Source: a virus
IMG/VR virus record: IMGVR_UViG_3300032288_001679
Span: 1 to 23,727 of that record
DNA: 23,727 nt
Strand: one strand, 5' to 3'
This document shows positions 4,731-23,727 of this stretch, in pieces. The first letter of the stretch is position 1. Every line of letters starts with the position of its first letter. The notes under the pieces are model-generated. The model was given only the letters and a program-made list of their open reading frames with translations. It ran no database searches and had not been told where the DNA came from. Position numbers and translations under genes: made by a program.

Positions 4731-5617
4731 TACAACACTCCAGGAAGAATTGGCTTTTGGTATCTCTCCAGTATTCTATCTACTATACGATTTCCAGTAC
4801 TATCCTTTGCATAGCCTTTTGAAAATTGAATTTTAAAATCATCATTATCAAATGATTCAATATACTTATTTACATATTTAAGATTATCTTCAACAATATC
4901 TTGAACTAATATTTGTGCTGCTTCTTGAATATCTTGTGGAATAACCTTCCATCCATATTCTGCATCTACTAAATATTCATACCCATCAGCAAATTCAATA
5001 TCTAGATATCTATCTCTCCATACAACTGTATATTCTGCTCTATTATTAGCATCTGATTTATTATATACAATTGCACTAAGTTGTCTTTTATAAACATACT
5101 CTTGATCTTTATCATATAAGTTTGGATCTCTGTCAAAGAAGGCTTCGTTATTTTCTAAAATACTGTAAATCTTTCCAGTAATTAATTCATCTATTAAAAG
5201 TTCATCTGATCCAGTTCCAATAAATTCTTTTTTCTTTCTTAGGTAATCAAATCCTCCAGTATAAGAATCTATAATGTATCTGGATAGTCTTTCATACTCT
5301 GTTGCTTGAGCAGTTGTTATTTTAAATGCTGAAGCCAATGATGCTATATTTGCATATGGTCTAACTAAGTCTATATTGAACATTTTAACCAAGTCTTCAG
5401 ACTGTAATTCTTTTACTGAAGCAGCAAGTTTTGCTGTATATGGTATAAAGTACTCTGGCAAGGAAAATACTGCAGTTCCAGAAGTTAATGCTGTGGCAGA
5501 TGCAGAGTATTCTTCTCCAGTAATTAAATCATTAAGTTCGATTAAATAGTTAGTGCTTGCAGTTAAACCTGAAACAGATGCACTTAATACACCACTGTTA
5601 TAATTTAAAATTTCCAT
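4730..5617 (-). CDS. Head-tail adaptor with extra N-terminal beta domain
   Basis: The product has 295 residues from ATG 5617, behind an AGAGGTG site. Residues 1 to about 70 are repetitive and strand-forming (SGVLSASVSGLTASTNYLIE; TALTSGTAVFSLPEYFIPYT), like a small Ig-like or beta-sandwich domain. From about residue 85 a helical portion (ASAFKITTAQATEYERLSRY) fits the helical bundle of gp6-type adaptors that dock on the portal ring. Typical adaptors have 100-200 residues, so the N-terminal domain is an addition, possibly exposed near the neck. It is the first gene after the capsid gene, the usual adaptor position. It has its own promoter candidate after the capsid terminator. Confidence 0.65.
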   Translation of the reverse strand: MEILNYNSGVLSASVSGLTASTNYLIELNDLITGEEYSASATALTSGTAVFSLPEYFIPYTAKLAASVKELQSEDLVKMFNIDLVRPYANIASLASAFKITTAQATEYERLSRYIIDSYTGGFDYLRKKKEFIGTGSDELLIDELITGKIYSILENNEAFFDRDPNLYDKDQEYVYKRQLSAIVYNKSDANNRAEYTVVWRDRYLDIEFADGYEYLVDAEYGWKVIPQDIQEAAQILVQDIVEDNLKYVNKYIESFDNDDFKIQFSKGYAKDSTGNRIVDRILERYQKPILPGVL

Positions 5618-5633
5618 TGTGCACCTCTAAATT

Positions 5634-5642
5634 ATTATATCA
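5634..5642 (-). promoter_or_regulatory. Extended -10 promoter for the neck and tail genes
   Basis: TGATATAAT (5642-5634) is a perfect -10 with a TGn extension, 16 bases before the adaptor start and just after the capsid terminator. No -35 match is present. The surrounding 16 bases ATAAATGATATAATAA are identical to those upstream of the protease gene (8128-8136), which supports a real shared element. Confidence 0.52.
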
Positions 5643-5656
5643 TTTATAAATAAATA

Positions 5657-5682
5657 AGAGGGGAACATTTCTGCTCCCCTCT
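5657..5682 (-). terminator. Intrinsic terminator after the major capsid gene
   Basis: AGAGGGGA (5682-5675 on the minus strand) pairs perfectly with TCCCCTCT (5664-5657), an 8-bp stem with a 10-base loop. It is followed by the T-rich TATTTATTTAT. It lies 19 bases past the capsid stop codon. The T tract is interrupted, so some readthrough is possible. Confidence 0.75.
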
Positions 5683-5700
5683 ATAATTGATCAGTACAAA

Positions 5701-6678
5701 TTATGCACTGTATGCAACTGCGTCAGTTTCTTCGATTTGAACTCCGAAACGTAAGAATACTGTATATTCTACAGTGTCTTTCTTAGGTTTGAATTCACGA
5801 TGAACTGTTACGTCTCTTTGGAAACCCCAAATACGGTTTTCAGGGAATGTCAAGACGACACGGTTTGTTGGCATCAATGGAACTTCAAGCAATGGAAGAC
5901 CCAATACTCTGTAAGAGATTGGCATTCCAAGGATTTGTGGTTCTTGTCCACCAACTACACGTTCTACGATTCTTTCGCTGTTCAGGTTACCTGAAGAGCC
6001 AAGACCGTTGATGATTCCTGATACTGTTTCTGAATCAGCATAGAACTTCATGTTTGAACGTGCTGCACGGAACTTACGTGGCATTGCAAGAACTAATGCT
6101 TGCAAATCTTCTACGTCTGTACCAAATGCTGCACTGTGTCCGTTGTTTTCTTTAGCAGTAAAGCCTTGCATGATGTTTAGGAATGCATTGGAACCTGTTC
6201 CAGTTCCGTTGATTGCTAGATCTTCTAAGTCGTTTGCAAATGCACGAGTCATTGTACGTACTAAGTGATCTTCTAATCCTGCACCTTCTAAGTTATCTTC
6301 TAGTGCTTCACTTGCTACTTCCCAGTCAAGACGAATTTTCTTTGTAGAAATTTCGACCTTTGTGAAGGTAACGCCAGCGTTTGTGTAAGTTGCATCTGCT
6401 TGAGCAGCGGCACGGATTACACGTTCTCCAACGTTTAGTTTTTCAAGTTCTGCAGCGTTTGTACGCATTGTTACTCTGCGTCCGTCACGTGCTAGTACTT
6501 GTTGTTCGAATATGTATTCGATAAATTGGCGTGATTGCTCAGGAGAAAGAATACCACCGTCATCAGTGGTAGATCCAACTACTCCAAGGTCGCCAGCGGC
6601 TGGGGATGTTACTCCACCAATACCACCTGAGACAATGGAACCTGTTGCAGCAGCCTTATTTAAAATATCTTCTGCCAT
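5701..6678 (-). CDS. Major capsid protein, HK97 fold
   Basis: This 325-residue protein starts at ATG 6678 with GGAGGTG 8 bases upstream and ends at TAA 5701. A Gly/Ala/Ser-rich N-terminus (about 1-45) precedes EQSRQFIEYIFEQQVLARDG, a typical start of the long spine helix region. KKIRLDWEVASEALEDNL and LEDHLVRTMTRAFANDLEDL, followed by AINGTGTGSNAFLNIMQG, are characteristic of HK97-type capsid proteins, as is the C-terminal GFQRDVTVHREFKPKKDTVE and the VEYTVFLRFG strand. It follows the protease-scaffold gene directly. Base composition is richer in G and C than in the neighbouring genes by eye, as expected of a highly expressed gene. Confidence 0.94.
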   Translation of the reverse strand: MAEDILNKAAATGSIVSGGIGGVTSPAAGDLGVVGSTTDDGGILSPEQSRQFIEYIFEQQVLARDGRRVTMRTNAAELEKLNVGERVIRAAAQADATYTNAGVTFTKVEISTKKIRLDWEVASEALEDNLEGAGLEDHLVRTMTRAFANDLEDLAINGTGTGSNAFLNIMQGFTAKENNGHSAAFGTDVEDLQALVLAMPRKFRAARSNMKFYADSETVSGIINGLGSSGNLNSERIVERVVGGQEPQILGMPISYRVLGLPLLEVPLMPTNRVVLTFPENRIWGFQRDVTVHREFKPKKDTVEYTVFLRFGVQIEETDAVAYSA

Positions 6679-6701: not shown

Positions 6702-7307
6702 TTAGCGATATAGGTCAGCGGAATTGAGGAAACGCCCGCCCCACATTGCTTTTTTTGTTATTTTTTCTTCTTGAACGACCCCGCCTAGGTCGCCAGATTT
6801 ACGGACAGCGGTTTCGTCTTCTAGACCGTCAACACGCTTTCCAAACTCATCTACATTGCCCTTAATGCCTTTAATTTCCTCTTGTGCGGAAGCAATGTCT
6901 TTCTTTAGTGATGCCACTGTTTCGTTTAGTGACTTAATTGTAGTCACCAAGTCTCCAAGTACTGAAGCAACTGTATTTTGAACCTCATCAACAGATTCTT
7001 GTACTGTATCTACAGCCTTTGCTAAATCAACGTCTTCGCTTTTTACGCTTTTTTCAGTTTCTTCAGCAGGAGTGGCGGCATCTTCGGCTGGGGCTGCTTC
7101 TTCAGCAGGTGCTGCTTCTTCAGCAGGTGCTGCTTCTTCAGCAGGTGCTGCTTCTTCAGCAGGTGCTGCTTCTTCAGCAGGTGCTGCTTCTTCAGCAGGT
7201 GCTGCTTCTGCAGGTGCTACTTCTTCAGTAGGTGCTGCTTCGCCCTCAGACTTTACAATGTTTTCATCTGCAACCTTAACGATTGCATCTACATTTTCAT
7301 TTGCCAT
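6702..7307 (-). CDS. Scaffold protein from an internal in-frame start (predicted)
   Basis: Inside the protease gene, AAGGAGGGG (7322-7314) stands 6 bases before an in-frame ATG (7307). This ribosome binding site is stronger than that of the full-length gene. The predicted 201-residue product begins MANENVDAIVKVADENIV and contains the EAAPAE repeat, the coiled coil (TIKSLNETVASLKKDIASAQ) and a basic C-terminus (KITKKAMWGGRFLNSADLYR). Scaffold proteins are typically helical with a basic C-terminal capsid-binding end. The arrangement copies lambda C/Nu3, where the scaffold is made from an internal start in the protease gene. The same start gives a scaffold without the protease, so most copies would be non-catalytic. 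The product is inferred from sequence alone. Confidence 0.72.
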   Translation of the reverse strand: MANENVDAIVKVADENIVKSEGEAAPTEEVAPAEAAPAEEAAPAEEAAPAEEAAPAEEAAPAEEAAPAEEAAPAEDAATPAEETEKSVKSEDVDLAKAVDTVQESVDEVQNTVASVLGDLVTTIKSLNETVASLKKDIASAQEEIKGIKGNVDEFGKRVDGLEDETAVRKSGDLGGVVQEEKITKKAMWGGRFLNSADLYR

Positions 7308-8087
7308 TTTGTTCCCCTCCTTAATAGGATTGTCAGCCTTGGTTACTTTTTCACCAAGTCTAATTTTCTGCGACTTTAATAAATCTTTGATCGCAGAATT
7401 CTTTTCAGTATCATTTGATTCAACGAAGCCAATATTGCTCATGCCTTTATCGCATGATGGACAAAGAGAGTCCTCGTCTTTAGAAAGTCTAACTAGGGAA
7501 TCAGATTCGCACCAGTAAACATTTTCAAGATCAACTTTACTAATTATACCGTCAATTTTATTTTTGCCATCTACTTTTTCAATAGAGACGATATTGGCAA
7601 ATTGGTTGGCTGGATTATCTACCAGCGAGAGTTCGTGGAGGTCGTAATCTTTAATAACTCTAACGGACTTATCCATCTTTTCATCGTAAACTTGTTCAGA
7701 ATCTTTAATGCTACCACCAATAGAGAAACCAGTAAGAGTGCCATCAAGAACCTTTTCCCAAGTATCTTGAGCACCTTTAGAAATGTATGCATTTACAAAT
7801 ACTCCATTATAGAATTTATCTTCATCTTGATTATAAAATTTATCTGATTTAAATGACACCATTCTACCTACCGCTACTGGCATGTGCATTTCACGGATAT
7901 TGCCACGAAAGTTTTCAAAAGCCTTTACGCTTACTTCAGTTGGAACAATATCTGCTTGTTTGTCGACATTATCAAGGGTTGCGAAACCAGACACAATACG
8001 CTTTTCTTTATCGACTTTAGCAATTGGCATTGACAACTTGATACTGTTGTCTTCTGAGTGCCAAAATGCTTTATGCAAATTTGTCAT
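6702..8087 (-). CDS. Prohead maturation protease fused to scaffold region
   Basis: The full product has 461 residues from ATG 8087 (GAGGT just upstream). Residues 1-170 are a U35/XkdF-type serine protease: VSGFATLDNVDKQADIVPTE, candidate catalytic His68 (REMHMP), candidate Ser122 (TGFSIGG), and DLHELSLVDNPANQFANI near 149-166. Cys193, Cys209 and Cys212 (CPSC) may form a metal site. From 261 comes a scaffold-like half with APAEEA repeats (about 285-335) and a long coiled coil (about 350-430). The protease cuts capsid and scaffold during head maturation. A strong internal start at Met261 predicts that the scaffold half is also made alone. Confidence 0.88.
   Translation of the reverse strand: MTNLHKAFWHSEDNSIKLSMPIAKVDKEKRIVSGFATLDNVDKQADIVPTEVSVKAFENFRGNIREMHMPVAVGRMVSFKSDKFYNQDEDKFYNGVFVNAYISKGAQDTWEKVLDGTLTGFSIGGSIKDSEQVYDEKMDKSVRVIKDYDLHELSLVDNPANQFANIVSIEKVDGKNKIDGIISKVDLENVYWCESDSLVRLSKDEDSLCPSCDKGMSNIGFVESNDTEKNSAIKDLLKSQKIRLGEKVTKADNPIKEGNKMANENVDAIVKVADENIVKSEGEAAPTEEVAPAEAAPAEEAAPAEEAAPAEEAAPAEEAAPAEEAAPAEEAAPAEDAATPAEETEKSVKSEDVDLAKAVDTVQESVDEVQNTVASVLGDLVTTIKSLNETVASLKKDIASAQEEIKGIKGNVDEFGKRVDGLEDETAVRKSGDLGGVVQEEKITKKAMWGGRFLNSADLYR
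7093..7200. repeat. Six perfect 18-bp tandem repeats in the scaffold gene
   Basis: The unit GCTGCTTCTTCAGCAGGT occurs six times without change, with degenerate copies on both sides (about 7066-7233). It encodes a six-residue APAEEA-type repeat on the minus strand. Perfect conservation at DNA level suggests recent expansion and likely copy-number variation. Confidence 0.95.
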
Positions 8088-8127
8088 ACTACCTCTATTA
8101 TAATAAGTGTTTATAGGTACTTTTCTT

Positions 8128-8136
8128 ATTATATCA
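8128..8136 (-). promoter_or_regulatory. Extended -10 promoter for protease, scaffold and capsid
   Basis: TGATATAAT (8136-8128) lies 40 bases before the protease ATG and 2 bases before the portal stop codon. It has the TGn extension and no -35 match. It shares ATAAATGATATAATAA with the element at 5634-5642. A second TATAAT lies closer to the gene (around 8098) but would start transcription inside the ribosome binding site. Confidence 0.52.
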
Positions 8137-8137
8137 T

Positions 8138-9691
8138 TTATTGTTGTTGTCTACCCTCGCCCTGTGCTGCACGTCCAGTTGTAGTGGATGTTGAGTCAGC
8201 GGCGTTGGCTGTTCTTTCTTGATCCCTAGTTCTATTCTCTGTAGCCTGAGCCATCTGTTGAGCAGCCTGTTGAGCATTAAGAACGATAGGCTCTGATCCT
8301 CCAGGTCTTACAGGATATCCCATTCTTTCACGAACTTCGTTAGGAACTATAACTTGCATACGTAAGTATCTTTCATCTATTTGACTTTGTGTTTGTTCAT
8401 CAGTTAGAGTTAATTCATTAAACTTTAACAGTAGTACATCAGTTTTTTCCTTGATAATTTTATTAATAGTTTTTTCTAGATTTCTTTGTGCTGGTCTTGC
8501 AACCTGCTCTTTAAAAGTTCTATCTGCCACTAATGCTGAGGCAATAGATACTCCAGCACCCCCTCCAACTTTGGAATATGGAACTTGATGAGCCATAAGG
8601 ATGTCGTCTCTATTTGATTTACGGTATTTTTCAAATGATCCATCTTGAATACCATTCTCAATTGGTTCAAGTTTAAAATCTACCTTATTATCTGGTCCAT
8701 CGCCAGGCAGTGGTATATAAAGTGTTCTATGATTTTGTCCACGAAGTCCTGCTTGCATGAATCTAAAGAATTTATCTTCTGCTTCTGGACTTAATTTTGC
8801 ACCTTTAACAACTGCAATATATCTAGGTACAGCCTTATTTTCAAAATAGTCTACATTGTATTTTGCAGATAATTCATTTCCAACCATAGATGTTGCTGCT
8901 GATACCGTATCTGGAATTCCATAATATGAGTTTTTTGGAGAGTACTTTTTAATATGGATTAGTTCGTTTGGTCTTGCATCACTTGTTACTGGGTTTTGAT
9001 TAGTACCTTGAAAGTTTCTAAAGAATACTACTCTTTGGTTTACTATCTGAATGTATCCATCACGCATGCGGCGAACACGAATTGTTGTTGATGGGATGTG
9101 TCCAATATATCCAATTTCACCATTGATCTTTCTACCAATTTCGATATAACCATTTCCTGTACTTTCTACATCTGTAAAAACCTTTTCTAGAACATGTGTA
9201 AATGTATCTTCATCATTTAAACTTTCTAACCAGTCTGTCATTTGAGCCTTTGCTCTTTGAATTTTTCTTTGTGCTCTCATTAAAGAGTCTTCATTTGGTG
9301 CTTCTTCTAATCTTGCCATTGTAGAATCTGTAATTTCAAAACTATACCCAAGGCCAACTGTGTTTGACACCTTTGCATTAATTGCTGCATGATTGGCATA
9401 TGAGTTTTCATAAAAATATGCTAGTTCATCTAAGTTATATGGTGGAACAACAACATCAAATAAGCCGTATGCTGTAACCATATCTTGTTCTGGGAATAGT
9501 TGTTTAGATCTAGCATCTTCAACACCCATAAATGCTTTATTAACAGTTCTTACAATTTTACGTTTAAAGTTGTGGCTAATGCCATCATAGGTCTTTACTA
9601 ATTCTGCTCCAGTATTAAAAGAGTCTACTTTTTCTCTTTTTTCAACCTTGTCTAAATTATCTATTCTTGCTATTGCTTCGTTATCTTCCAT
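8138..9691 (-). CDS. Portal protein
   Basis: A 517-residue protein starts at ATG 9691, overlapping the preceding gene by 11 bases, with AAGGA about 10 bases upstream. The sequence has the hallmarks of siphophage portals: VSNTVGLGYSFEITDS near 105, DVESTGNGYIEIGRKINGEI near 168-187, IHIKKYSPKNSYYGIPDTVS near 246-265 and the SAKYNVDYFENKAVPRYI segment. The C-terminal 50 residues are a Gln-rich, Ala/Thr-rich disordered tail (AQQAAQQMAQATENRT). Twelve copies would form the ring through which DNA enters and leaves the head. Protease and capsid genes follow in the usual order. Terminase genes normally lie directly upstream but are replaced here by a small unknown gene and a LamG gene. Confidence 0.93.
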   Translation of the reverse strand: MEDNEAIARIDNLDKVEKREKVDSFNTGAELVKTYDGISHNFKRKIVRTVNKAFMGVEDARSKQLFPEQDMVTAYGLFDVVVPPYNLDELAYFYENSYANHAAINAKVSNTVGLGYSFEITDSTMARLEEAPNEDSLMRAQRKIQRAKAQMTDWLESLNDEDTFTHVLEKVFTDVESTGNGYIEIGRKINGEIGYIGHIPSTTIRVRRMRDGYIQIVNQRVVFFRNFQGTNQNPVTSDARPNELIHIKKYSPKNSYYGIPDTVSAATSMVGNELSAKYNVDYFENKAVPRYIAVVKGAKLSPEAEDKFFRFMQAGLRGQNHRTLYIPLPGDGPDNKVDFKLEPIENGIQDGSFEKYRKSNRDDILMAHQVPYSKVGGGAGVSIASALVADRTFKEQVARPAQRNLEKTINKIIKEKTDVLLLKFNELTLTDEQTQSQIDERYLRMQVIVPNEVRERMGYPVRPGGSEPIVLNAQQAAQQMAQATENRTRDQERTANAADSTSTTTGRAAQGEGRQQQ

Positions 9692-13681: not shown

Positions 13682-15622
13682 CTATTTACTAATATCAACT
13701 ATTTCGCATACCCCTGCAACGCATGAAAGTTCTTGTGTTCCAGTAGTACCGTCTTCTTTTTCGTAAATAGAAAGCATTTCCCACTGAATATTTGAAGGTG
13801 ATTTTTTTACCCAGTCTTCGTACTCATCTTTAGAAATTTCTTGATATGGGGCTTGTTTATATGTATGCTCACTTGCTGGTAAGAAAGATACGCCACCAAT
13901 TGAATCAAAGTTATCAAAAACCCATGCACCAACCTTTAACCATTCATCTTCATGAACATTGATAGTAACACTAGGGTTATGTTCTGTCCAATAAGTTCTA
14001 TATATCTTCCACATTTCTAGATGATCTATGGCTGTTAAATCTTTTGTTACAGTTGCATTTTTTGGAGCCTTTTGAGGAAAATAAAACACTGTTGTTTCTT
14101 CTGGCTTCATAACATCAGGTTCGTATGCAACTCCTGAGTCTTTTAAAAATTGTGTTAATGGATCTTTATTATCTCCACGAACACTTCTTAAATAGTATTC
14201 TGAATACCACGGATGAATACCACTTGACACCCCGACCAGTTGACTTACAGTGCCAGAAGGCTTAACGCAAGTAATAGATACAGATGGATTAATGTTTAAT
14301 TTTTTTGCTTCATTATCATTTACCTTAACTGATTCTAGTCTCATGTTAGTCAACAACTGTTCTAATGCTTTTCCTGCAGTTGAAGTAATTTTATTTCCAT
14401 AAATTCCTGTTAAAGATACGCCAAGCAATCTTTCTTCTTCACAATTATCTTTCCATGTTTTACGAAGATATTTAAAGTTTGTCAATGTTGATTGCCATGT
14501 TCCAAGAATTGTGGCTAGTCTAACCTTTTCTAGTAATTCTTCTCTAGTATCTTCTGCTGAGATAACAACTTCTGTTAAATTACAAAATTCATTTGGACGA
14601 AGAATAATCTCACCACATGGATTTGTTCCAGAAACTAAAGATGCATCTCTTCTTCCAAAAGATTCAACATGTTTACGAACTGATCCTATATTATAAATTC
14701 CTCTTTCGCCAGATTTTGATTCGTAAAGATTTCTCCACTCACGTAAAAATTGAGCAGTGTTTGGTTTAGTATTATAAACGGCTGAGTTGTTTGCTAAAGC
14801 ACGTTGTGGTTGAGTTTCCCACCATTGTCCACTTTTTGCTTTTGCCATTTCAAAATCATCAAGGTTTGATAGAGATATTAAAGCAGAACGGCGTACTCCT
14901 CCTACTACTACAACTTCACCTACTTTACACATTAGGTCATGTGCTTCTACTGGTTTTAATCTACGACCAGCAGCGTTTTTAAAAGTATCCACTGTAAATG
15001 TAAATAAAGTGCTAAGTGGTCCTGGACCAGAGGCACGGCCACCAAAAGTCTTCAATCTTGCACCTGCTGGACGAACTTTTGACATATCCCATTGTGGAAC
15101 TTGTCCTTGAGATAATAGTGCAATTAATTCTTTAAATGCCTTTGCCCATCCTAATTTAGAATCTTCTACAATAATTGTTGTTGCTGTTTGACTAAATGAT
15201 TCTGCAATAATCGGAAGTTCATCTGTATATTTTGATTCAACACTAAAGCCAACACCTGTTCCGTTCATTAAAACATACATTGCCTCATCAAATGCACGTA
15301 GACTATCAACTGCAATAAATGAACAATTATATGCAGCAATATGATCACGCTCTAATGCTGGACCTGCTGTCATCAAGGCTCTCATTGAAGGCATAATTCT
15401 ATGATTTAAAATTGCATCTTTTACTTCATCAAAAATTTTAGCATTTGGGCTATATCCATAATTTAATATTAAATGATCTTTCATGAAATTGACATAGCGA
15501 TCTACGGTTTCTACCCAAGTTTCTCTTCTATTTTTTTCTTCTACCCACCTTGCATATCTTGAAATATGAATAAAATTCTTATATGGATCTGTAATTGATC
15601 CGTTTTCGTTAATAAATGACAT
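13682..15622 (-). CDS. nrdJ: Adenosylcobalamin-dependent ribonucleoside-triphosphate reductase (class II)
   Basis: The enzyme converts ribonucleotides to deoxyribonucleotides for phage DNA synthesis, using vitamin B12 to generate a thiyl radical. All catalytic parts are visible (numbered from ATG 15622, 646 residues). Cys100 (AYNCSF) and Cys347 (FCNLTE) form the active-site pair. Asn334, thiyl Cys336 and Glu338 lie in NPCGEI. Cys634 and Cys639 form the C-terminal CVAGVC relay. VKPSGTVSQLVGVSSGIH is also typical. The 11-residue step from Cys336 to Cys347 equals that of the Lactobacillus enzyme. Length is below the usual ~740, mostly between Cys100 and Cys347. A TTG at 15634 abuts AGGAG directly, so ATG 15622, 12 bases after AGGAG, is the better start. 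Confidence 0.94.
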   Translation of the reverse strand: MSFINENGSITDPYKNFIHISRYARWVEEKNRRETWVETVDRYVNFMKDHLILNYGYSPNAKIFDEVKDAILNHRIMPSMRALMTAGPALERDHIAAYNCSFIAVDSLRAFDEAMYVLMNGTGVGFSVESKYTDELPIIAESFSQTATTIIVEDSKLGWAKAFKELIALLSQGQVPQWDMSKVRPAGARLKTFGGRASGPGPLSTLFTFTVDTFKNAAGRRLKPVEAHDLMCKVGEVVVVGGVRRSALISLSNLDDFEMAKAKSGQWWETQPQRALANNSAVYNTKPNTAQFLREWRNLYESKSGERGIYNIGSVRKHVESFGRRDASLVSGTNPCGEIILRPNEFCNLTEVVISAEDTREELLEKVRLATILGTWQSTLTNFKYLRKTWKDNCEEERLLGVSLTGIYGNKITSTAGKALEQLLTNMRLESVKVNDNEAKKLNINPSVSITCVKPSGTVSQLVGVSSGIHPWYSEYYLRSVRGDNKDPLTQFLKDSGVAYEPDVMKPEETTVFYFPQKAPKNATVTKDLTAIDHLEMWKIYRTYWTEHNPSVTINVHEDEWLKVGAWVFDNFDSIGGVSFLPASEHTYKQAPYQEISKDEYEDWVKKSPSNIQWEMLSIYEKEDGTTGTQELSCVAGVCEIVDISK

Positions 15623-15653
15623 TAATAAATACAACTCCTAATTTTTGATTTTA

Positions 15654-16008: not shown

Positions 16009-16518
16009 ATGAAGAAAGTATTATTAGCATTAATAGCATTTATTGTTGTTGGAACTTCTATAAATCGACTGGATAGGTCACATATTTTATACCCCGCAGA
16101 ACCGTTAGTGGTCGTCCCAGAAGGACAGACCACTTCAAGTGTTTTAGGGGCCGTACAGGCCGCTAGAGAGGCTTCTAGCACTACTGCAGCACGTTCTAGG
16201 GCTAGATTTGAAGATCCTAAATCAGATAAGGCTATTTCTGCTTATCAAGAGTATTTAAGAGATGTGGTTCCAGATAATGAAGAAGCCTGTTATTTTAACA
16301 TTGTTGATAAAGAAAGTGATTGGAATCCGCTTGCTCAAAATCCTAAATCAACAGCATTTGGAATAGGTCAATTTTTAAATAGTACATGGGGATTGGTAGA
16401 TCATAAAAAGACTAAAAATCCATATGATCAAATTGATGCTATGGCTAAATATGTTAAATTAATTTATGGTGATGGATGTAATGCTTGGCATTTTAAAAGC
16501 CAACATGGTTGGTATTAA
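16009..16518 (+). CDS. Secreted or membrane-anchored lytic transglycosylase (lysin)
   Basis: The 169-residue protein starts at ATG 16009 after AAGGAGGTAACTT. A signal peptide or signal anchor (KKVLLALIAFIVVGTSI, residues 2-18) precedes a polar, Ser/Ala-rich linker (about 38-75). The SLT lysozyme-like domain follows: KESDWNPLAQNPKSTAFGIG with candidate catalytic Glu102, GIGQFLNSTWG (118-128), and the end CNAWHFKSQHGWY. The last motif is typical of actinobacterial transglycosylase-like proteins. Cys94 and Cys157 could form a disulfide outside the membrane. The enzyme would cut peptidoglycan glycan strands. The gene is on the opposite strand from most of the phage and meets the glycosyltransferase tail to tail with a 4-base overlap. 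A virion-associated lysin is an alternative. Confidence 0.88.
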   Translation: MKKVLLALIAFIVVGTSINRLDRSHILYPAEPLVVVPEGQTTSSVLGAVQAAREASSTTAARSRARFEDPKSDKAISAYQEYLRDVVPDNEEACYFNIVDKESDWNPLAQNPKSTAFGIGQFLNSTWGLVDHKKTKNPYDQIDAMAKYVKLIYGDGCNAWHFKSQHGWY

Positions 16519-17606
16519 AGTTCTCTAATTTCTCTATAAACTTTATCCCATTCAAGACCTCTTGTCTGAATGCTATGAAATTCTTTTACTAATTTATAGT
16601 TATTTTGTCTCTCAATATTTCTTGTTTTAGGATTCTTTAAATCTTCTAAATGAGATAGCCATTGGTCCTCTGTCTTTGCAACCCTTCCAATCCCATATTC
16701 ATTATATAAAAATGAGTATTCTTCCATATCTTCTGCAATAAATGGAACGCCAGCAGCAGCATATTCAAGACCTTTAATAAAAGATTTAGCACGATTAAAC
16801 TCTACCTCGTTTAATGGAACAAGTCCAATATCTATTCTTTTAAACATGTTCTCATAAGAAAGTATTGGCTGCATACCTTCTGAAGAAAATAATTTGGGTG
16901 GTATATTCATTTGTTCTTGAACTGTTGGAGCATTAATAATGTGCCCAGAGTGATGGAATCTTAAATTGTTTTTTTCAATAAAGTTTCCCATAAATCCAGA
17001 AAGGGTTTCTAAATCATTAGATCTCCAAGGTGTTGCCCCTACCCATCCAACTATAGGAAATAATCCTGACTTATCTTTTCTCATATGAAAATGTTGAAAG
17101 TCTATAGAATTACGAACCATATATACTGGTTTTCCTGGATACTTTTTTTCATAAAATTGTTTTAGAAATGGGGTAGATGTTATTAAAGCATCTGCTAATT
17201 CCATACCCCTAAAATAATGTTCACGATTATTTTTAGGATTATTTTTAGGATCAGTTGAGGCATATGCCATATTTGTTTTTTCTAAACCTTCGTGAAAATC
17301 ATCAACATCTATAACTATCTTTTGACCTATTGCTTGAGCCTTTGGGATATTATCAACTATTTGTTCTAGCATCATAAGTTTTAATACAACTATATCCCAA
17401 CCATGAATTGCCTTTTTATCTGGAATTAGTAGTCCGAATCCATGATCTTCTGTAAATGCTGGAAAACCCATTCCTGTTTCCCAATCTCTTTCTTTTAATT
17501 GTTGCATAGGTAGAAAGCATCTATACCAAGCACAACCATTTGGTTGTAATGGTTTAGTACCCCATGACCAATCATAGGTTAAGAAACATATTGTAGGTTT
17601 TGCCAT
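16515..17606 (-). CDS. GT-B fold glycosyltransferase
   Basis: This 363-residue protein starts at ATG 17606 (weak AGAAAG upstream) and ends in a 4-base overlap with the lysin. The N-terminal half holds PTICFLTYDWSWG, then DVVLK-like and DVDDFHEGL (100-108). The C-terminal half starts near 185 (PIVGWVGATPWRSNDLETL), and the sugar-nucleotide site appears as IDIGLVPLNEVEFNRAKSFI then KGLEYAAAGVPFIAEDMEE (278-296). These are GT-B, GT4-like signs. It would move a sugar from a nucleotide donor to an acceptor in the cytoplasm. It follows a cluster of dioxygenases, so a hydroxylated acceptor is conceivable. A terminator lies just upstream, and no promoter is seen between them, so expression may rely on readthrough. 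Confidence 0.86.
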   Translation of the reverse strand: MAKPTICFLTYDWSWGTKPLQPNGCAWYRCFLPMQQLKERDWETGMGFPAFTEDHGFGLLIPDKKAIHGWDIVVLKLMMLEQIVDNIPKAQAIGQKIVIDVDDFHEGLEKTNMAYASTDPKNNPKNNREHYFRGMELADALITSTPFLKQFYEKKYPGKPVYMVRNSIDFQHFHMRKDKSGLFPIVGWVGATPWRSNDLETLSGFMGNFIEKNNLRFHHSGHIINAPTVQEQMNIPPKLFSSEGMQPILSYENMFKRIDIGLVPLNEVEFNRAKSFIKGLEYAAAGVPFIAEDMEEYSFLYNEYGIGRVAKTEDQWLSHLEDLKNPKTRNIERQNNYKLVKEFHSIQTRGLEWDKVYREIREL

Positions 17607-17626
17607 ATCAAACTTTCTATTAGAAA

Positions 17627-17650
17627 AGGGGGCAGAGTTAACTACCCCCT
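17627..17650 (-). terminator. Intrinsic terminator after the holin-like gene
   Basis: AGGGGG (17650-17645 on the minus strand) pairs with CCCCCT (17632-17627), with an inner two-base pairing around a short loop. TTTTC follows. It lies 11 bases past the holin-like stop codon and ends 20 bases before the glycosyltransferase start. Confidence 0.75.
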
Positions 17651-17661
17651 AGTTTTAAGAC

Positions 17662-17904
17662 TTACTTCTTTTTAGGAGCAGCCTTTGGTGCTACAGCACC
17701 GATACCAAACTTGGTATCTTTTGGATTAACTGCACGGATAACTACCCATGCTGCTGCAGTCACTGCTGCATTTAGTACGTTACCAACTACATCGCCTGTT
17801 AAAGCAGATACGTCTGCACCTGATTCAACAAACTTACCAATTAAGGTAATTAAAAAAGCGTTTAGAGCAGAACTCAAAACTGCTTTATTTAGTACTGATT
17901 CCAT
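17662..17904 (-). CDS. Holin-like small membrane protein
   Basis: The 80-residue protein starts at ATG 17904 with a very strong AAAGGAGG site. Two hydrophobic segments are visible, VLSSALNAFLITLIGKFV (about 9-26) and VGNVLNAAVTAAAWVVIRAV (about 40-59), separated by a short acidic loop, and the C-terminus is basic (APKAAPKKK). Two membrane helices with a charged tail is a standard small-holin layout, which would form lesions letting lysin reach the wall. It has a strong private promoter and a terminator, consistent with timed, monocistronic expression. The lysin is 1.1 kb away on the other strand. A non-lytic small membrane protein cannot be excluded. Confidence 0.68.
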   Translation of the reverse strand: MESVLNKAVLSSALNAFLITLIGKFVESGADVSALTGDVVGNVLNAAVTAAAWVVIRAVNPKDTKFGIGAVAPKAAPKKK

Positions 17905-17930
17905 AATGTCCTCCTTTAGAACATATATAT

Positions 17931-17959
17931 ATTGTACACCCCTGCAAGAGTGGTGTCAA
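17931..17959 (-). promoter_or_regulatory. Strong promoter for the holin-like gene
   Basis: TTGACA (17959-17954) is a perfect -35 box. A 17-base spacer leads to TACAAT (17936-17931), one base from the -10 consensus. The -35 box overlaps the end of the preceding dioxygenase gene. It is the best promoter match in the window. Confidence 0.8.
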
Positions 17960-18534
17960 TCCTTATACCAAAATCCTGGACTCATATATTTTAAGCCTTT
18001 TGTCACTATCATAGATTCATGGTAGTATGGGGCAACTGATGGAAATGCTATTAAACTTCCTGCAGATGGTTTAATTACAACACCTTGATCTTTAAAACTC
18101 AACTCTCCACCATCATAATTATCATTGATATATAAAACTACAGATAAAACAGGAGATCTTCCATCATCATAAGAATCAACATGTGGTCCCATTTGTTTGC
18201 CAGTTGAATACTTTGCTATAGATATTGGTGTTAAATATCCTAAATCTATATTATGCTCTTTTGCATAATCTTTTGATGCATTTGATATAGCATTTCTGAC
18301 TTGCTTATTTATAGATATTAATACTTCATTAGTTTCATCTATAATTGATTCATTAATAAATTTTTGATACCCAAAATTATATGATTTATCGGACGCATGC
18401 CATTGCTTCCATTTAGTTATAGATGTATTATTATTTAAAAATTTATCAGACTCTTCTATATCTTTTATTAAAGCATATGGTTTATCAATTATTCCTTCAT
18501 AATAATGAATTTTATCAAATTTAGTTATTTTCAT
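17956..18534 (-). CDS. 2-oxoglutarate/Fe(II) dioxygenase (K-type, last of the array)
   Basis: The product has 192 residues from ATG 18534. A TTG at 18546 would add four residues but is less likely. The iron-binding triad is His118, Asp120 (MGPHVDS) and His172 (YYHES). Lys182, ten residues after the distal His, is the likely 2-oxoglutarate contact. VLYINDNYDGGELSFKDQ and KPSAGSLIAFP are standard P4H-family features. These enzymes use O2 and 2-oxoglutarate to hydroxylate a substrate, in the cytoplasm here since no signal peptide is seen. The start overlaps the preceding gene by 14 bases. The sequence is closest to the second domain of that gene (GPH-DS, SP---V, KP-AGS). Substrate unknown. Confidence 0.88.
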   Translation of the reverse strand: MKITKFDKIHYYEGIIDKPYALIKDIEESDKFLNNNTSITKWKQWHASDKSYNFGYQKFINESIIDETNEVLISINKQVRNAISNASKDYAKEHNIDLGYLTPISIAKYSTGKQMGPHVDSYDDGRSPVLSVVLYINDNYDGGELSFKDQGVVIKPSAGSLIAFPSVAPYYHESMIVTKGLKYMSPGFWYKD

Positions 18535-19654
18535 CTTTAAATCCAAACAATAGTATCGATATCTTGCTTCCTGCTGTAATTAAACTTGGTAAGTGACTAT
18601 ATGGCTCAACACATGGATATATTAAAATACTTCCAGCGATAGGTTTTAACGTTAGATCTTGCTTGTCAAATATTAATTCTCCACCAGAATAATTATCATT
18701 TAAGTCAATCATAACTGTTATATATGGAGATTTAGCGTCCCCATGTGAATCAGTATGTGGTCCCAAATGTTTTCCTGGATATGATCTATGTATTACCATA
18801 TCTGTAAATTTTGTTATTTTTATATTATTTTTTGTTTCATAATCATTTATACAGTCTTTTAAAATATTCTTTATTTCTTCTATTTCTAACTTTTTATACT
18901 CAGTAAATTCATAAGTATTTACTTCGTATGCTTGACCTTCAGTGGCTTTTGTTGGATAAAACTTCCATGGGCTTCCCATATCTTCTATTTTATCTAAAAT
19001 GTTTTGAGGATTTTTAATAACATTTTTATAATAAAAAATTTTTTTATTAGTATACAAATCATTAGTATAATCTTGTTGTTTAAATTCTTTTATTTCATTA
19101 TTCCACCAGGAAACTATTGTATATCGTGTTTCATTTTTTACTTCATTTACTCCATGTATATTACTATGATCTCCTGGAAAAGTTAATATAGAGCCAGATT
19201 GTGGCTTTATTTTTAAATCATGTTGTGGAAAGTATAGTTCTCCACCATTATAGTTATCATTTAGATAAAGAATTATTGTATATTTATTTGTACTATTTTG
19301 ATTTGGATTACCGTCCAAGTCGCTGGTATCGGAATGTATTTCTACCATTCCACCCTTATCCCATTTTTGTGCATGATAGGTTACCCCAGTAAATTTTTGA
19401 TTAAATGTTTCTTCTATAGCATCTTTAAATCTATAATTAATATTCTCAAAAATGTTTTTTTCTAGTCCATAGTTTTCTAATTTTTTATCATAAAAAGATA
19501 GTGGCATTCCATAGCATTTTGTAAAACTTTCATTAAATACAATCCACTTTTCTGGCTGAGAATCAAGATATTTTATAATTAATTCAGACTCTTTTTTAGA
19601 AATAAAATTTTTAATCTCAACAATATCGTGTTTATGATATATCACATCAGACAT
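18521..19654 (-). CDS. Tandem two-domain 2-oxoglutarate/Fe(II) dioxygenase
   Basis: This 377-residue protein carries two complete dioxygenase domains. Domain 1 (about 5-190) has His107, Asp109, distal His167 and Arg177, with HAQKW, NKYTIILYLNDNYNGGELYF and GDHSNIHGV. Domain 2 (about 200-375) has His300, Asp302, distal His354 and Lys364, with LGPHTDSHGDAKSP and IDLNDNYSGGELIFDKQD. The 2-oxoglutarate-binding residue lies exactly 10 after the distal His in both, Arg in the first and Lys in the second. Domain 1 resembles the preceding gene and domain 2 the following one, so the gene may be a fusion made after duplication. ATG 19654 has no clear ribosome binding site. It starts 15 bases after the previous stop. 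Confidence 0.88.
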   Translation of the reverse strand: MSDVIYHKHDIVEIKNFISKKESELIIKYLDSQPEKWIVFNESFTKCYGMPLSFYDKKLENYGLEKNIFENINYRFKDAIEETFNQKFTGVTYHAQKWDKGGMVEIHSDTSDLDGNPNQNSTNKYTIILYLNDNYNGGELYFPQHDLKIKPQSGSILTFPGDHSNIHGVNEVKNETRYTIVSWWNNEIKEFKQQDYTNDLYTNKKIFYYKNVIKNPQNILDKIEDMGSPWKFYPTKATEGQAYEVNTYEFTEYKKLEIEEIKNILKDCINDYETKNNIKITKFTDMVIHRSYPGKHLGPHTDSHGDAKSPYITVMIDLNDNYSGGELIFDKQDLTLKPIAGSILIYPCVEPYSHLPSLITAGSKISILLFGFKDENN

Positions 19655-19668
19655 AGTATTTCAATCTA

Positions 19669-20349
19669 CTAAGCAAGTTGGTTACCTTTAGCCCATTCCT
19701 CTTTTTGAAGTGCCTGCTCTTCTCTAATATGTTTAATTTCTTCATCCCAAGCATCTAAAGTTTCTTTACTATATTCTGCATCAGCGTAATCCCAAAATGA
19801 AACCATTGTATATCTAGTTCCTTTGGTTATTTCTTTAACTCCATGGATATTCTCATGTCCTCCAGGAAACATAATAAAAGAATATACTGGTGGCTTAAAT
19901 TCTAAATTATGATCTGGAAAATATAATTCTCCGCCTTCATAGTCATCGTTTAAATATAAAATTCCAACATATTTATTAATATGAAAAGCATTAGGATTTC
20001 CTTCATGATCTGAATTATCAGAATGTGGTGCAGCAAAACCTCCGACCTTCCATTTTTGTGCATGAGAAGTATTTGCCCTTAATTCTCTTTCAAAAAACAT
20101 TTCACATGATTGTTTGAATCTATTTTTTAAATTATCAAAAAATTTAGGATCTAATCCAAGTTCTATAAGTCTTTGATCGTGTGGTGCTAAACCCATTCCC
20201 AAAGAATTGTAAAATGCAATGTCTCCCCATATTTGTGCTTGAGATTCAAAATATTTAATCATAGACTTTGCTTCTTGTTCAGTAACAAAGTTATCTAATC
20301 GTGCTATATCATCTTTATAAAATTTAAGATCGTTTTTATTTAAAATCAT
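19669..20349 (-). CDS. 2-oxoglutarate/Fe(II) dioxygenase (R-type)
   Basis: The 226-residue enzyme starts at ATG 20349, overlapping the preceding gene by 14 bases. Iron ligands are His109, Asp111 and His169. Arg179 is the 2-oxoglutarate contact. Signature segments are SHAQKW (95-100), NKYVGILYLNDDYEGGELYF (125-144) and ENIHGVKEITKGTRYTMVSF. The N-terminal part (GMGLAPHDQRLIELGLDPKF) aligns well with domain 1 of the next gene, so the two are close relatives. The C-terminal ~40 residues are a charged helix (KETLDAWDEEIKHIREEQAL) absent from the others. No signal peptide. Likely soluble hydroxylase; substrate unknown. Confidence 0.9.
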   Translation of the reverse strand: MILNKNDLKFYKDDIARLDNFVTEQEAKSMIKYFESQAQIWGDIAFYNSLGMGLAPHDQRLIELGLDPKFFDNLKNRFKQSCEMFFERELRANTSHAQKWKVGGFAAPHSDNSDHEGNPNAFHINKYVGILYLNDDYEGGELYFPDHNLEFKPPVYSFIMFPGGHENIHGVKEITKGTRYTMVSFWDYADAEYSKETLDAWDEEIKHIREEQALQKEEWAKGNQLA

Positions 20350-21124
20350 ACTTCTTCATATCCCTCTCTATTCTTTCATCTTCCATTTTACCCCATAATT
20401 CTTCTCCATATTTTTCTTTACCCTCGTGCCACTCTTTAGAACCTGGATCAAAGAACTGATAAAAACATCTTATTAAATATCTGGCATTGCCATCTATTCT
20501 TTTTACACCATGTAAATATGGGTGATCTTCAGATAAAAAATCTGGATGCCCTGATGGAAATACTAAAACATCTCCAGCAACAGGCTTGTAGTCTATATAA
20601 TCTTTTCCTATCTTAAAACTAATCTCTCCGCCTTCATAGTCATCATTTAAATACATTGTACATGTTAATCCAAATTTATATCCTGGAACACCTTTCATCC
20701 AGGGCACGTAGTCTGTATGTCTTGACATACTCATACCACTTCCAACTCTTCCGTCTTCCTTGCCATCTGGAGTGTATCTTGAAAATGATGGACCCATAAG
20801 TTTCCAATCTTCTGGAACCTCTAAGTTATATTCTTTTAAAAAATTAGAAGTACTATCAAAAAATGCTTTTTTAACTAATTCTAAATAATGAACTTCTTTT
20901 ATTAGTTTTTCATCTTGTATTCCTGAATTAATTGCATCATTGTTTATTTGATATACATATGTTCCAAAAAAACTCCATGGCTTCCAATCTTTAAAAAGAT
21001 AAGAAGTGTTTGGATCTTTTTCAGATTTTTTTAATATTTCTACTAATTCATCGTGACCTGGCAATAAATTTTTATATATATGTATTTTAGGAAATAACTT
21101 AATATATTCCATATTAATCCCCAT
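20336..21124 (-). CDS. 2-oxoglutarate/Fe(II) dioxygenase, longer form
   Basis: The 262-residue product starts at ATG 21124, overlapping the previous gene by 11 bases. ATG 21112 (MEYIKLF) is an equally possible start, with GGGGA 7 bases upstream. Iron ligands are His136, Asp138 (SRHTDYV) and His205 (YLHGVKR). Arg215 follows at +10. CTMYLNDDYEGGEISFKIGK and KPVAGDVLVFPSGHPDFL are typical. The HxD segment includes an extra loop (PWMKGVPGYKFG) and the C-terminus an extra charged extension (SKEWHEGKEKYGEELWGKME), so this member is more divergent from its neighbours. It may act on a different substrate in the same pathway. Confidence 0.88.
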   Translation of the reverse strand: MGINMEYIKLFPKIHIYKNLLPGHDELVEILKKSEKDPNTSYLFKDWKPWSFFGTYVYQINNDAINSGIQDEKLIKEVHYLELVKKAFFDSTSNFLKEYNLEVPEDWKLMGPSFSRYTPDGKEDGRVGSGMSMSRHTDYVPWMKGVPGYKFGLTCTMYLNDDYEGGEISFKIGKDYIDYKPVAGDVLVFPSGHPDFLSEDHPYLHGVKRIDGNARYLIRCFYQFFDPGSKEWHEGKEKYGEELWGKMEDERIERDMKKYDFK

Positions 21125-21797
21125 GCTCTACTATTGTCCAAAAAAATGGTAGTGTATATCTTGTTCCAGATGTTACTTCTCTAACCCCATGTATATAATT
21201 CATATCTCCTGGAAAAAAGTATGCAGCACCTGCTTTAGGTTTAAATTCAATATTATGTTGAGGAAAGTACAACTCTCCTCCTTCATAATCATCATTAAGA
21301 TACATTAAGCCAGCAATATCATAATATGGAAAATTGTTTGGCTTGCCACTATTCTCTCCCTCATGCAATTCCTTATCTGCGTGTGGTAGTTGATAGTTGC
21401 CTGGAAACCATCTTACAAAGGCAGGAAATGTTGGTACGGCATTAACATTAAGATGAGAATCAACTTTTTCTTTAAATCTTACCAACAATTCAACAATTTT
21501 ATTTCTTACAGCATTTTCTGAGTCTTGTTGTGATATTTCTTTTTGATTTGCTACACGGTTAGCCCAAAAACTAGCATCATAAATCATTACTCCGTCTTCA
21601 TCATAAACGCTTTCGTCTTTATGCCAATTTTCTAAATTAACAGCAAAGTTATATAAAAGTTCTTTATCTTCTTTAGTCATGAAATCTTCCAAACTAACAA
21701 TATTATCTTTTGATACACCAAAGAATCCAGATGGGGTGATAGATACCCTATTTTTATCTGTTTCTTGCATTAGTTTTTCTAATTCTTCTATATTCAT
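21114..21797 (-). CDS. 2-oxoglutarate/Fe(II) dioxygenase (R-type)
   Basis: A 227-residue enzyme starts at ATG 21797 without an obvious ribosome binding site. Iron ligands are His139, Asp141 (LPHADKE) and His203 (NYIHGVRE). Arg213 binds 2-oxoglutarate. The core (IAGLMYLNDDYEGGELYFPQ and FKPKAGAAYFFPGDMNYIHG) is nearly the same as in the genes downstream. The N-terminal half is helical and acidic with little match to its relatives. It follows the unknown pair after a 19-base gap. Likely a soluble hydroxylase; substrate unknown. Confidence 0.89.
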   Translation of the reverse strand: MNIEELEKLMQETDKNRVSITPSGFFGVSKDNIVSLEDFMTKEDKELLYNFAVNLENWHKDESVYDEDGVMIYDASFWANRVANQKEISQQDSENAVRNKIVELLVRFKEKVDSHLNVNAVPTFPAFVRWFPGNYQLPHADKELHEGENSGKPNNFPYYDIAGLMYLNDDYEGGELYFPQHNIEFKPKAGAAYFFPGDMNYIHGVREVTSGTRYTLPFFWTIVEHGD

Positions 21798-21816
21798 AAT
21801 TTTATTTTACCATGTT

Positions 21817-22551
21817 CTATTCGTATGATCTTCTATGCCAATCAACATTTTTATATACCCCGCCATCAGGTATTCTATATTTAGCAGCATTATTTATATT
21901 TTTTTGAGGTATCATCATTGGATCTTCAATAACAATAGAAGACTTCCAATTCTCTCGTTTAAATGGAAATATCTGTACAAATGGGGTTCCTTTTGGTATT
22001 ACTCCAGTCCAACCCTCTCTTAAGAAAAATGGTAGATTTCCATTAAGATTAACAACATCATTATCTATAACTCCTGAAGTATTAATAAATGGTAAATCAA
22101 ATCTATTAAATGGAGTTGTATATAAAGCACTATATCCAGTTGGTAGAATGGTTCCCCAATCTATGAACCAAGCAAAGTGGTCCAAGTAGTATCCATCTGG
22201 TTGATAAAACCCAAGCATTGGAGTTCTTTCGCTACAAAAACTTTCATTCTTAACGTCATTTATTTTATGACGAATATCTCCCTGTTCATCTAAATAAAAT
22301 TCTATATCGCATGGCGTATACATAAAATATCCAGTCATCATTGCATCCATAAATGGCATGCATGCTTTCCAACTAGAAATTTTTCCACCATCTTGATCTT
22401 TATAATATTCTCCAGTATCTGGATTGGTAATAAACCTTTCTGCTTTTGTATACCATTCAGGCATTGTTTTAGAAGCAGGAGATGGTTTAGTATTTGTTCT
22501 CTCGCTTTGCCAAAATCTATTACTGATAAATTTTATTTCTTGACTATCCAT
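21817..22551 (-). CDS. Unknown protein, possibly DUF6065-like, related to the next upstream gene
   Basis: The 244-residue protein is best started at ATG 22551, which has AAAGGAG 6 bases upstream. An ATG six codons earlier (22569) lies before that site and is less likely. It has no membrane segment or known catalytic motif. It is aromatic-rich and beta-looking: MTGYFMYTPCDIEFYLDEQG, HFAWFIDWGTILPTGYSALY, and the end motif IPKGTPFVQIFPFKRENW. The upstream neighbour shares this plan (GY---PVDVSF and GEPFATIIP), so the two are probably diverged paralogs. A DUF6065-type family is suspected from memory only. It starts 8 bases inside the upstream gene and sits among dioxygenases, so co-function with them is plausible. 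Confidence 0.78.
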   Translation of the reverse strand: MDSQEIKFISNRFWQSERTNTKPSPASKTMPEWYTKAERFITNPDTGEYYKDQDGGKISSWKACMPFMDAMMTGYFMYTPCDIEFYLDEQGDIRHKINDVKNESFCSERTPMLGFYQPDGYYLDHFAWFIDWGTILPTGYSALYTTPFNRFDLPFINTSGVIDNDVVNLNGNLPFFLREGWTGVIPKGTPFVQIFPFKRENWKSSIVIEDPMMIPQKNINNAAKYRIPDGGVYKNVDWHRRSYE

Positions 22552-23254
22552 TGTTTCTCCTTTTATCATTAATAGTTAACTTTAAAGATTTTACTTCATG
22601 ATCTCCTATAGAAATGTCATTATGATCTGTTGCGTTTCTATACCAGTTTGTCCATTCACCCTTTTTATTAAGTTCATATGCTGCCCTACCTCTTTCTTCA
22701 TTATTTTTATACCATTCATTATCCATATTAAAATCATTTAAATTAAGTTCTATATTTGACATGTCAGTTAAAGAAATTGGAATGATAGTTGCAAATGGCT
22801 CCCCTGCTTTTATTGTTATAACAGTATTTGGTTTTAATATTCTTATAGCAGATGGAAACTCTTGATCAAAAAATGATGTACTAATTATAGTAGTAAATGT
22901 TTGATATAAATCATTAAATAAATTAGGAACTGGCATATGTAAAAAACTAATATTTTTATCAGATTTTATAACTATACCTGTTTTAAAACTAATAGTTGCA
23001 TTGGCTCTAGAATTACTTATAAATTCTTCTCCAGATATAACATTTACATGTTCTGCAGATGAGTTATTTATACCATCCCATATAAAACTAACGTCTACTG
23101 GCAAAGATAATTCATACCCTATTGTATTTGCTAGGCTTACTGGAAAACATTTATATGCATGTTTTTCTCCAGTATTTTCCATCCAATCTCTTTTAATTCT
23201 AGTTTGTTTAATATTTACAGATTGATTTTGACAGTATACTTCTATGGTAGACAT
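22544..23254 (-). CDS. Unknown protein, paralog-like partner of the next gene
   Basis: The 236-residue product starts at ATG 23254, sharing a base with the preceding stop (TAATG). It is predicted soluble, with a strand-rich core: NTIGYELSLPVDVSFIWDGI (about 46-65), ATISFKTGIVIKSDKNISFL (about 87-106) and IKAGEPFATIIPISL (about 158-172). The last segment lines up with GTPFVQIFPFKR of the following gene, as does the GY---(P)-D(I/V)-F region, suggesting a shared fold such as a jelly-roll. The C-terminal 60 residues are polar. The function is not recognised. Its location inside the dioxygenase array is the only functional clue. Confidence 0.76.
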   Translation of the reverse strand: MSTIEVYCQNQSVNIKQTRIKRDWMENTGEKHAYKCFPVSLANTIGYELSLPVDVSFIWDGINNSSAEHVNVISGEEFISNSRANATISFKTGIVIKSDKNISFLHMPVPNLFNDLYQTFTTIISTSFFDQEFPSAIRILKPNTVITIKAGEPFATIIPISLTDMSNIELNLNDFNMDNEWYKNNEERGRAAYELNKKGEWTNWYRNATDHNDISIGDHEVKSLKLTINDKRRNNG

Positions 23255-23727
23255 TAGTCTTCCGTATTACTATATATCTCTGGTGTATGATACTTTGCAC
23301 TATAATCAAGCATCGTTACCAATGAATATTTTATACCACTAGTTACTTTTTCAGCAACGTGTGGGTACATAAAGTTTGACGGAAATACATACATATCTCC
23401 AGCCTTTGGTTTAATTTTTAGTCCTTGTAATCTAAAAGATAACTCTCCACCTTCATAGTTATCATTTAAGTAACACACTAAAGATACGGTGCAGTTATAT
23501 GAATATCCATGGTCATGATGTTCCATAAAATGTTGACCTTCGCCATATCTAATAAAGTTAAATGCTTCCCAATATTTTAAGTCCATGATATTAAACATAG
23601 ATCTATAATGATCCACTGCTGCTGCTTTTCTGTCGTAACATTGCTGCCAAATTTTTGCTAACTCTTTATATGCAACTGAGCCATCGTCTATTAAGTCTGA
23701 TTTTTTATATTTAAAGTCAACACAGTC
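23254..23727 (-). CDS. 2-oxoglutarate/Fe(II) dioxygenase, C-terminal 157 residues (cut by right edge)
   Basis: The frame is open from the right edge (beginning DCVDFKYKKSDLIDDGS) to the stop at 23254, so the start lies outside the window. A GTG at 23616 is an internal codon, not a convincing start. Within the visible fragment the iron ligands are His70, Asp72 (MEHHDHG) and His123 (YPHVAEK). Lys133 follows at +10. VSLVCYLNDNYEGGELSFRL and KIKPKAGDMYVFP are typical of P4H-type dioxygenases. With Lys as the 2-oxoglutarate contact it groups with the last enzyme and domain 2 of the fusion rather than with the Arg-type members. It is the first visible gene of the array. Confidence 0.9.
   Translation of the reverse strand, partial: DCVDFKYKKSDLIDDGSVAYKELAKIWQQCYDRKAAAVDHYRSMFNIMDLKYWEAFNFIRYGEGQHFMEHHDHGYSYNCTVSLVCYLNDNYEGGELSFRLQGLKIKPKAGDMYVFPSNFMYPHVAEKVTSGIKYSLVTMLDYSAKYHTPEIYSNTED

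Follow-up and report, generated by a model that had tools for sequence, protein, structure and literature searches.

A dioxygenase gene cassette beside tail fibres with proline-phenylalanine repeats in uncultivated phages suggests hydroxylation of the attachment fibre

Introduction

What viruses do with prolyl-hydroxylase-like enzymes is an open question: their role "remains cryptic" (PMC9301287) and is unknown in the chloroviruses (PMC7019647), while phage 2-oxoglutarate (2OG) oxygenases are mostly filed as auxiliary metabolism. The closest described systems are of four kinds: the viral prolyl 4-hydroxylase of PBCV-1 (vCPH; PDB 5c5t), a single gene in an algal virus; the cyanophage, pelagiphage and PHROG_61 2OG-Fe(II) oxygenases, with several genes per genome; the double-domain prolyl hydroxylases OGFOD1 and Tpa1; and the prolyl 4-hydroxylases (P4Hs) acting on hydroxyproline-rich repeat proteins such as extensin and collagen. 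For PBCV-1, attempts to find hydroxyproline in virions failed (PMC7019647), and cyanophage dioxygenases have been proposed to act in nitrogen signalling or DNA repair (PMC3037559). Here we examined a run of such enzymes in an uncultivated freshwater-type phage, the window analysed being a whole IMG/VR virus contig of 23,727 bases (IMGVR_UViG_3300032288_001679). In contrast to vCPH, to which it is related in sequence and fold, the run is a multi-enzyme block of a widespread type that in tailed phages almost always lies directly behind a tail-fibre gene carrying Pro-Phe repeats. The cyanophage, pelagiphage and PHROG_61 enzymes belong to the same superfamily, but their best matches are only about 24-35% identical to the core enzymes described below, and in the two cyanophages checked, with 8 and 11 dioxygenases, the genes are dispersed along the genome and no Pro/Phe repeat is present. 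OGFOD1 and Tpa1 carry two tandem DSBH domains, of which only one is catalytic, with ribosomal protein Rps23 as the substrate, whereas both sites are intact in the phage fusion protein. The extensin and collagen systems offer a functional parallel, a Pro-rich tandem repeat beside P4H-type enzymes, but the repeat units found here (PPFF, PPYF, FF[SA]PPG) are neither collagen nor extensin, and their hydroxylation has not been shown.

Dioxygenase genes of the window

The first-pass annotation described seven dioxygenase domains in six adjacent genes at 17956-23727, all with intact active sites, and this observation is confirmed, with two corrections of detail. Every residue listed is correct: the H/D/H/(R or K) set lies at 70/72/123/133 in the edge fragment, 139/141/203/213, 136/138/205/215, 109/111/169/179, 107/109/167/177 and 300/302/354/364 in the fusion, and 118/120/172/182 in the last gene (numbered from ATG 18534), with the R or K exactly ten residues after the distal His in all seven. 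All six proteins exceed the Pfam gathering score of the prolyl-hydroxylase-like family PF13640 (2OG-FeII_Oxy_3; 35.8-82.4 bits against 27; E 5e-23 to 2e-8), which rules out a chance match. None looks decayed: there are no internal stops, and dN/dS is 0.03 to 0.31 against relatives at 67-96% amino-acid identity, indicating purifying selection. Across all loci collected, 946 of 967 domains keep H, D/E, H and R/K.

All genes lie on the minus strand and are described here in the order of transcription. Gene e (23254-23727; orthogroup 48, a core member; PF13640 E 2e-15; H70 D72 H123 K133; dN/dS 0.03) shows 157 residues, its N-terminus being cut by the contig end. It is followed by two genes that are not dioxygenases and that interrupt the run, so that the six genes are not all adjacent as had been stated: D1 (22544-23254) is a DUF6065 protein (PF19541, 97.5 bits, E 1.1e-27; phrog_7084), and D2 (21817-22569) is a DUF6065-like protein that has no Pfam hit up to E 1 but matches phrog_7084 at E 4.6e-35. 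The model of D2 (pLDDT 92) has a predicted dUTPase-like fold; its top 50 Foldseek hits are of the dUTPase / dCTP deaminase fold, but with a best E of 1.8e-3 and a TM by query of about 0.3, and as the catalytic motifs were not examined, membership in that group is left undecided. Then come dioxygenase A (21114-21797; orthogroup 27, a core member; E 4.9e-10; H139 D141 H203 R213; dN/dS 0.08), and the accessory dioxygenases B (20336-21124; orthogroup 8; E 2.3e-9; H136 D138 H205 R215; dN/dS 0.07-0.16) and C (19669-20349; orthogroup 34; E 1.7e-8; H109 D111 H169 R179; dN/dS 0.05-0.07). The next gene (18521-19654) is a fusion of two dioxygenase domains of orthogroups 34 and 53 (two PF13640 stretches, E 4.8e-23; both sites intact), represented by an unfused single domain in one relative, locus L018. 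The last gene of the array is the accessory dioxygenase Z (17956-18534; orthogroup 57; E 4.9e-12; H118 D120 H172 K182; dN/dS 0.13), beyond which lie a small holin-like gene and a glycosyltransferase (16515-17606). Neighbouring genes overlap or lie within 19 bases of each other, from which we infer that the block is one transcription unit.

Relatives and the upstream tail-fibre genes

That the array might be an assembly artefact had been named beforehand as a finding that would overturn the observation, and comparison of homologous neighbourhoods speaks against it: the same order is found in independent contigs (our loci L006 at 100%, L007-L009 at 88%, L010 at 79% and L012-L018 at 75%). The same comparison gives the second correction, as the statement that the array continues past the right edge holds only for the missing 67 or so N-terminal residues of gene e. 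In L009, L010 and L018, whose gene B is 88%, 79% and 75% identical, gene e is complete (224 aa; L009:7395-8069) and is the first dioxygenase, and past it these relatives carry tail-fibre genes with (PPFF)n repeats. In L009 an fn3 tail protein (L009:6665-7351) ends 43 bases upstream of gene e and reads fn3-VPFFPPFFPPFFPPFFPPYF-S74 chaperone, while the gene before it (L009:5803-6663) reads fn3-PPFFPPFFPPFFPPFFPPFFPPFFPP-HINT. Distant arrays (L022, L027, L029, L073, L083) have fn3 proteins with longer repeats of the same kind; no collagen-like Gly-X-Y substrate was supported, the fibres seen carrying PPFF-type repeats instead. Repeat codons vary at synonymous sites while Pro and Phe stay, and the repeat varies as PPFF, PPYF, PPHF and FF[SA]PPG yet keeps PP next to aromatics. 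Many repeats end the protein, whereas others are followed by HINT-like or S74 domains. For the HINT domain of the neighbouring fibre in relatives, a PDB profile hit to the bacterial intein-like domain 2lwy was obtained at 1e-9, with Cys1 invariant and the C-terminal Asn nearly so, but the block-B His is mostly Gln, and these mixed signs do not settle whether it is a HINT (intein/hedgehog) domain; its cleavage is uncertain.

A tblastn search with the module proteins found no close homologue in 50,697 phage records; among cultured phages there was no match for the repeat-HINT fibre or for D1, and only distant matches for the rest. Nor did we find a report of the association described below in a literature search that left out most subscription papers and preprints.

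Association of array and repeat

To test the link we scanned viral contigs for DNA encoding PPxFPPxFPP, a pattern that knows nothing of dioxygenases, and for an S74 tail-fibre motif as a control, and ran a dioxygenase profile built from the array on both sets (gene calls were simple longest-ORF calls). Of loci of at least 5 kb, 71/96 repeat loci against 4/104 control loci hold one or more dioxygenase domains (Fisher p 2e-27) and 44/96 against 0/104 hold three or more (p 1e-17), amounting to 28.4 against 0.55 domains per 100 kb. Single-linkage clustering merged 68 loci into one mosaic group, and greedy dereplication was therefore used; at 95, 80 and 70% identity it keeps the difference (p 2e-25, 1e-23 and 4e-16). 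In 63/65 loci the nearest dioxygenase gene is downstream of the repeat, at a median of 631 bp. Because the profile came from these phages, the test was repeated with Pfam PF13640 on whole contigs, which gave 29 of 29 repeat-selected contigs of 35-113 kb (chosen for length, and some already known to be positive from their loci) against 0 of 29 controls of 21-453 kb. The control set is not habitat-matched, the portal set described below being closer to that. Of 24 repeat loci without a dioxygenase nearby, 11 have one elsewhere on the contig, so that 13 of 89 dereplicated repeat loci still show no PF13640 domain, all 13 being fragments under 40 kb. Bacterial genomes contain chance matches of the pattern without arrays.

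In the reverse direction, among array loci found through dioxygenase queries, 49 of 53 with at least 2.5 kb of upstream flank contain a Pro/Phe repeat, including FF[SA]PPG variants that the scan pattern would miss, whereas 0 of 35 loci with fewer than three domains do. The four exceptions (L098, L137, L138 and L141) are arrays of 3 domains. Given these and the two repeat-free cyanophages mentioned above, the link is specific to this cassette and not to phage dioxygenases in general.

A natural experiment is offered by relatives with nearly the same portal, which share the same backbone and among which fibre repeat and array come and go together. Of 32 such contigs over 15 kb, 5 have repeat and array, 4 have dioxygenase genes without the repeat but at or within about 2 kb of a contig end, 23 have neither (including 87- and 81-kb contigs), and none has the repeat alone (Fisher p about 6e-4). 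In array-free relatives the same site, beside the conserved glycosyltransferase, holds other fibre-like or unassigned genes. Fibre and enzymes thus appear to move as a unit, of which the glycosyltransferase is not a part: hydroxylation followed by glycosylation by its product was considered and dropped from the cassette, since that gene and, in several, the holin-like gene are also present in array-free relatives. Homologues of the portal are found in 22 of 34 long module contigs at 56-63% identity, so that many loci share a deep common backbone, although 12 show no such homologue.

Composition of the cassette

Orthogroups 48 (gene e) and 27 (gene A) are the common core; where both occur, 48 is upstream of 27 in 105 of 106 loci, with a DUF6065-like gene between them in 105 of 106. 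The other dioxygenases vary, and arrays reach 12 domains in 20.8 kb, so that the long run of the window is not unusual for this group. Recent tandem duplication of one enzyme was rejected, as the domains are 20-46% identical and each window domain is closer to a same-position gene in distant phages than to its own neighbours. Some accessory orthogroups track the repeat letters (OG4 occurs in 7 of 13 His-containing and 0 of 49 other repeat types, and OG26 follows Tyr), although these links are not corrected for relatedness. Array size does not scale with repeat length. Some arrays also hold a short-chain dehydrogenase or a TauD-type oxygenase.

Enzyme type

Among solved structures, a profile of these proteins best matches Bacillus P4H (1.5e-14), P3H1 (3e-14), PiuC, PBCV-1 P4H and procollagen lysyl hydroxylase. 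The fusion was the only one of the six dioxygenase proteins to be modelled (pLDDT 86.7); its two domains have the double-stranded beta-helix fold, with Foldseek matches to P4H structures at E 1e-7 to 1e-9. OGFOD1/Tpa1 is its best whole-length fold match, and algal P4H with (Ser-Pro)5, vCPH, P3H1 and PHD2 match by domain. By sequence and by fold the closest characterised enzymes are peptidyl-prolyl hydroxylases, although hydroxylation of peptidyl proline was not assayed here. The TET/JBP profile (PF12851) does not reach its cut-off in any of the proteins, the best score being that of the fusion, at 30.3 bits against 34.9, while PF13640 scores 82.

Discussion

We consider it more likely than not, with moderate confidence, that the window holds most of a fibre-hydroxylation cassette, ordered in the direction of transcription as tail-fibre gene(s) with a Pro/Phe tandem repeat towards the C-terminus, dioxygenase e, one or two DUF6065-like proteins, dioxygenase A, and a variable set of further dioxygenases. 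In this view, during infection these prolyl-hydroxylase-type enzymes would bind Fe(II) and 2-oxoglutarate and hydroxylate the repeat of the fibre (Pro first; perhaps the neighbouring Phe, Tyr or His) before assembly, turning a very hydrophobic stretch into a stiff, soluble, receptor-facing tip; hydroxylated proline would make such a stretch more soluble and stiffer, and HINT-like or S74 domains, if they self-cleave, would leave the repeat as the tip. Our analysis demonstrates the intact active sites, the purifying selection, the gene order, and a strong, reciprocal and mobile association of array with repeat. We infer, on the other hand, that the repeat is the substrate, which residues are hydroxylated, how labour is divided among the enzymes, what role DUF6065 plays (its dUTPase-like appearance does not obviously fit), and that the window's own fibre, before which the contig ends, carries the repeat as those of its relatives at 88%, 79% and 75% do; no activity, hydroxyproline or virion data exist for any of these phages. 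The first-pass interpretation is partly supported: several different hydroxylations in one pathway fit the same-position relationships, the intact sites and the tightly packed, conserved block, but the view that substrates cannot be read from sequence is too pessimistic, as the constant neighbour, a tail fibre with Pro/Phe repeats, names a candidate substrate. If the proposal is true, it would mean a post-translationally hydroxylated phage adhesin, a new Pro/Phe repeat class of fibre, and a ready toolbox of peptide hydroxylases with natural substrates encoded next door. A bolder form is possible but, in our view, less likely than not: a dedicated adhesin-maturation system in which up to 12 differentiated dioxygenases each act on their own position of a Pro/Phe/Tyr/His repeat to produce a multiply hydroxylated fibre tip, in some phages exposed by a self-cleaving HINT or S74 domain, with the enzyme repertoire co-evolving with the repeat letters.

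Other explanations were weighed and appear unlikely. Tail-fibre regions are exchange hot spots, and the dioxygenases might merely travel with this fibre type while acting on host proteins or on 2-oxoglutarate/nitrogen signalling; the block is indeed swapped at one genomic site, Bacillus P4H, a near relative, modifies elongation factor Tu according to the title of PDB entry 5v7y, and a role in nitrogen signalling has been proposed for the cyanophage enzymes (PMC3037559). However, the link is to one repeat type, ordinary S74 tail-fibre neighbourhoods having almost no dioxygenases, and it recurs over diverged loci and in the 12 of 34 contigs without a detectable homologue of this portal. Slightly less likely still is that the array makes or decorates a small molecule or surface glycan attached to the fibre or the host envelope, as a cyanophage cluster with 2OG enzymes has been read (PMC7824862) and as the short-chain dehydrogenase or TauD-type oxygenase of some arrays might suggest, since the core cassette has no sugar or scaffold-making genes, the glycosyltransferase next to the window array is equally present in array-free relatives, and the nearest solved enzymes act on peptidyl residues. 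Least likely of all is nucleotide or DNA base hydroxylation, with dioxygenases acting like TET/JBP and DUF6065-like proteins handling nucleotides. It draws on the resemblance of the DUF6065-like model to dUTPase and dCTP deaminase, on a haloarchaeal virus homologue that lies near thymidylate synthase, and on the weak, sub-threshold Tet_JBP similarity of the fusion, but it does not explain the repeat association, and the PDB profile hits to TET (8e-5) are many orders of magnitude weaker than those to P4H.

Other features of the locus and its relatives

Tail fibre proteins of related phages carry fn3, a Pro/Phe repeat, and a C-terminal HINT-like (intein/BIL) domain, as seen in the loci L009 (5803-6663), L027 (1963-3342), L029 (4929-6248), L083 (658-1962), and L185. 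In this domain Cys1 is invariant and, in most, a terminal Asn is present; the block-B His, however, is mostly Gln, so that activity is uncertain. In one contig, L029, repeat-HINT fibre genes (4929-6248 and 16314-18080) are situated on both sides of a 12-domain dioxygenase array. In the bacterial genome collection, the loci that combine a Pro/Phe tandem repeat with several dioxygenase genes are L489, from a Verrucomicrobiales MAG, and L545, from a Chitinophagaceae MAG; both probably represent phage sequence binned with the host.

One or two copies of DUF6065-like proteins, encoded in the window at 21817-22569 and 22544-23254, are part of nearly every array. The one that was modelled gave a confident structure, with a predicted and remote dUTPase/dCTP-deaminase-like fold. 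A DUF6065-like homologue in haloarchaeal tailed viruses (L562, Halorubrum tailed virus HRTV-7, 7851-8741) lies near thymidylate synthase and a family B DNA polymerase, with no annotated dioxygenase nearby.

Elsewhere in the window, the glycosyltransferase at 16515-17606 (phrog_7162) is conserved at the same place in relatives with and without the dioxygenase array. The gene at 13682-15634 encodes a phage ribonucleotide reductase that matches phrog_367 and shows similarity to the class II (B12-dependent) insertion domain, while the protein encoded at 6702-8087, between the portal and major capsid-like genes, carries an (EEAAPA)n low-complexity repeat in its middle.
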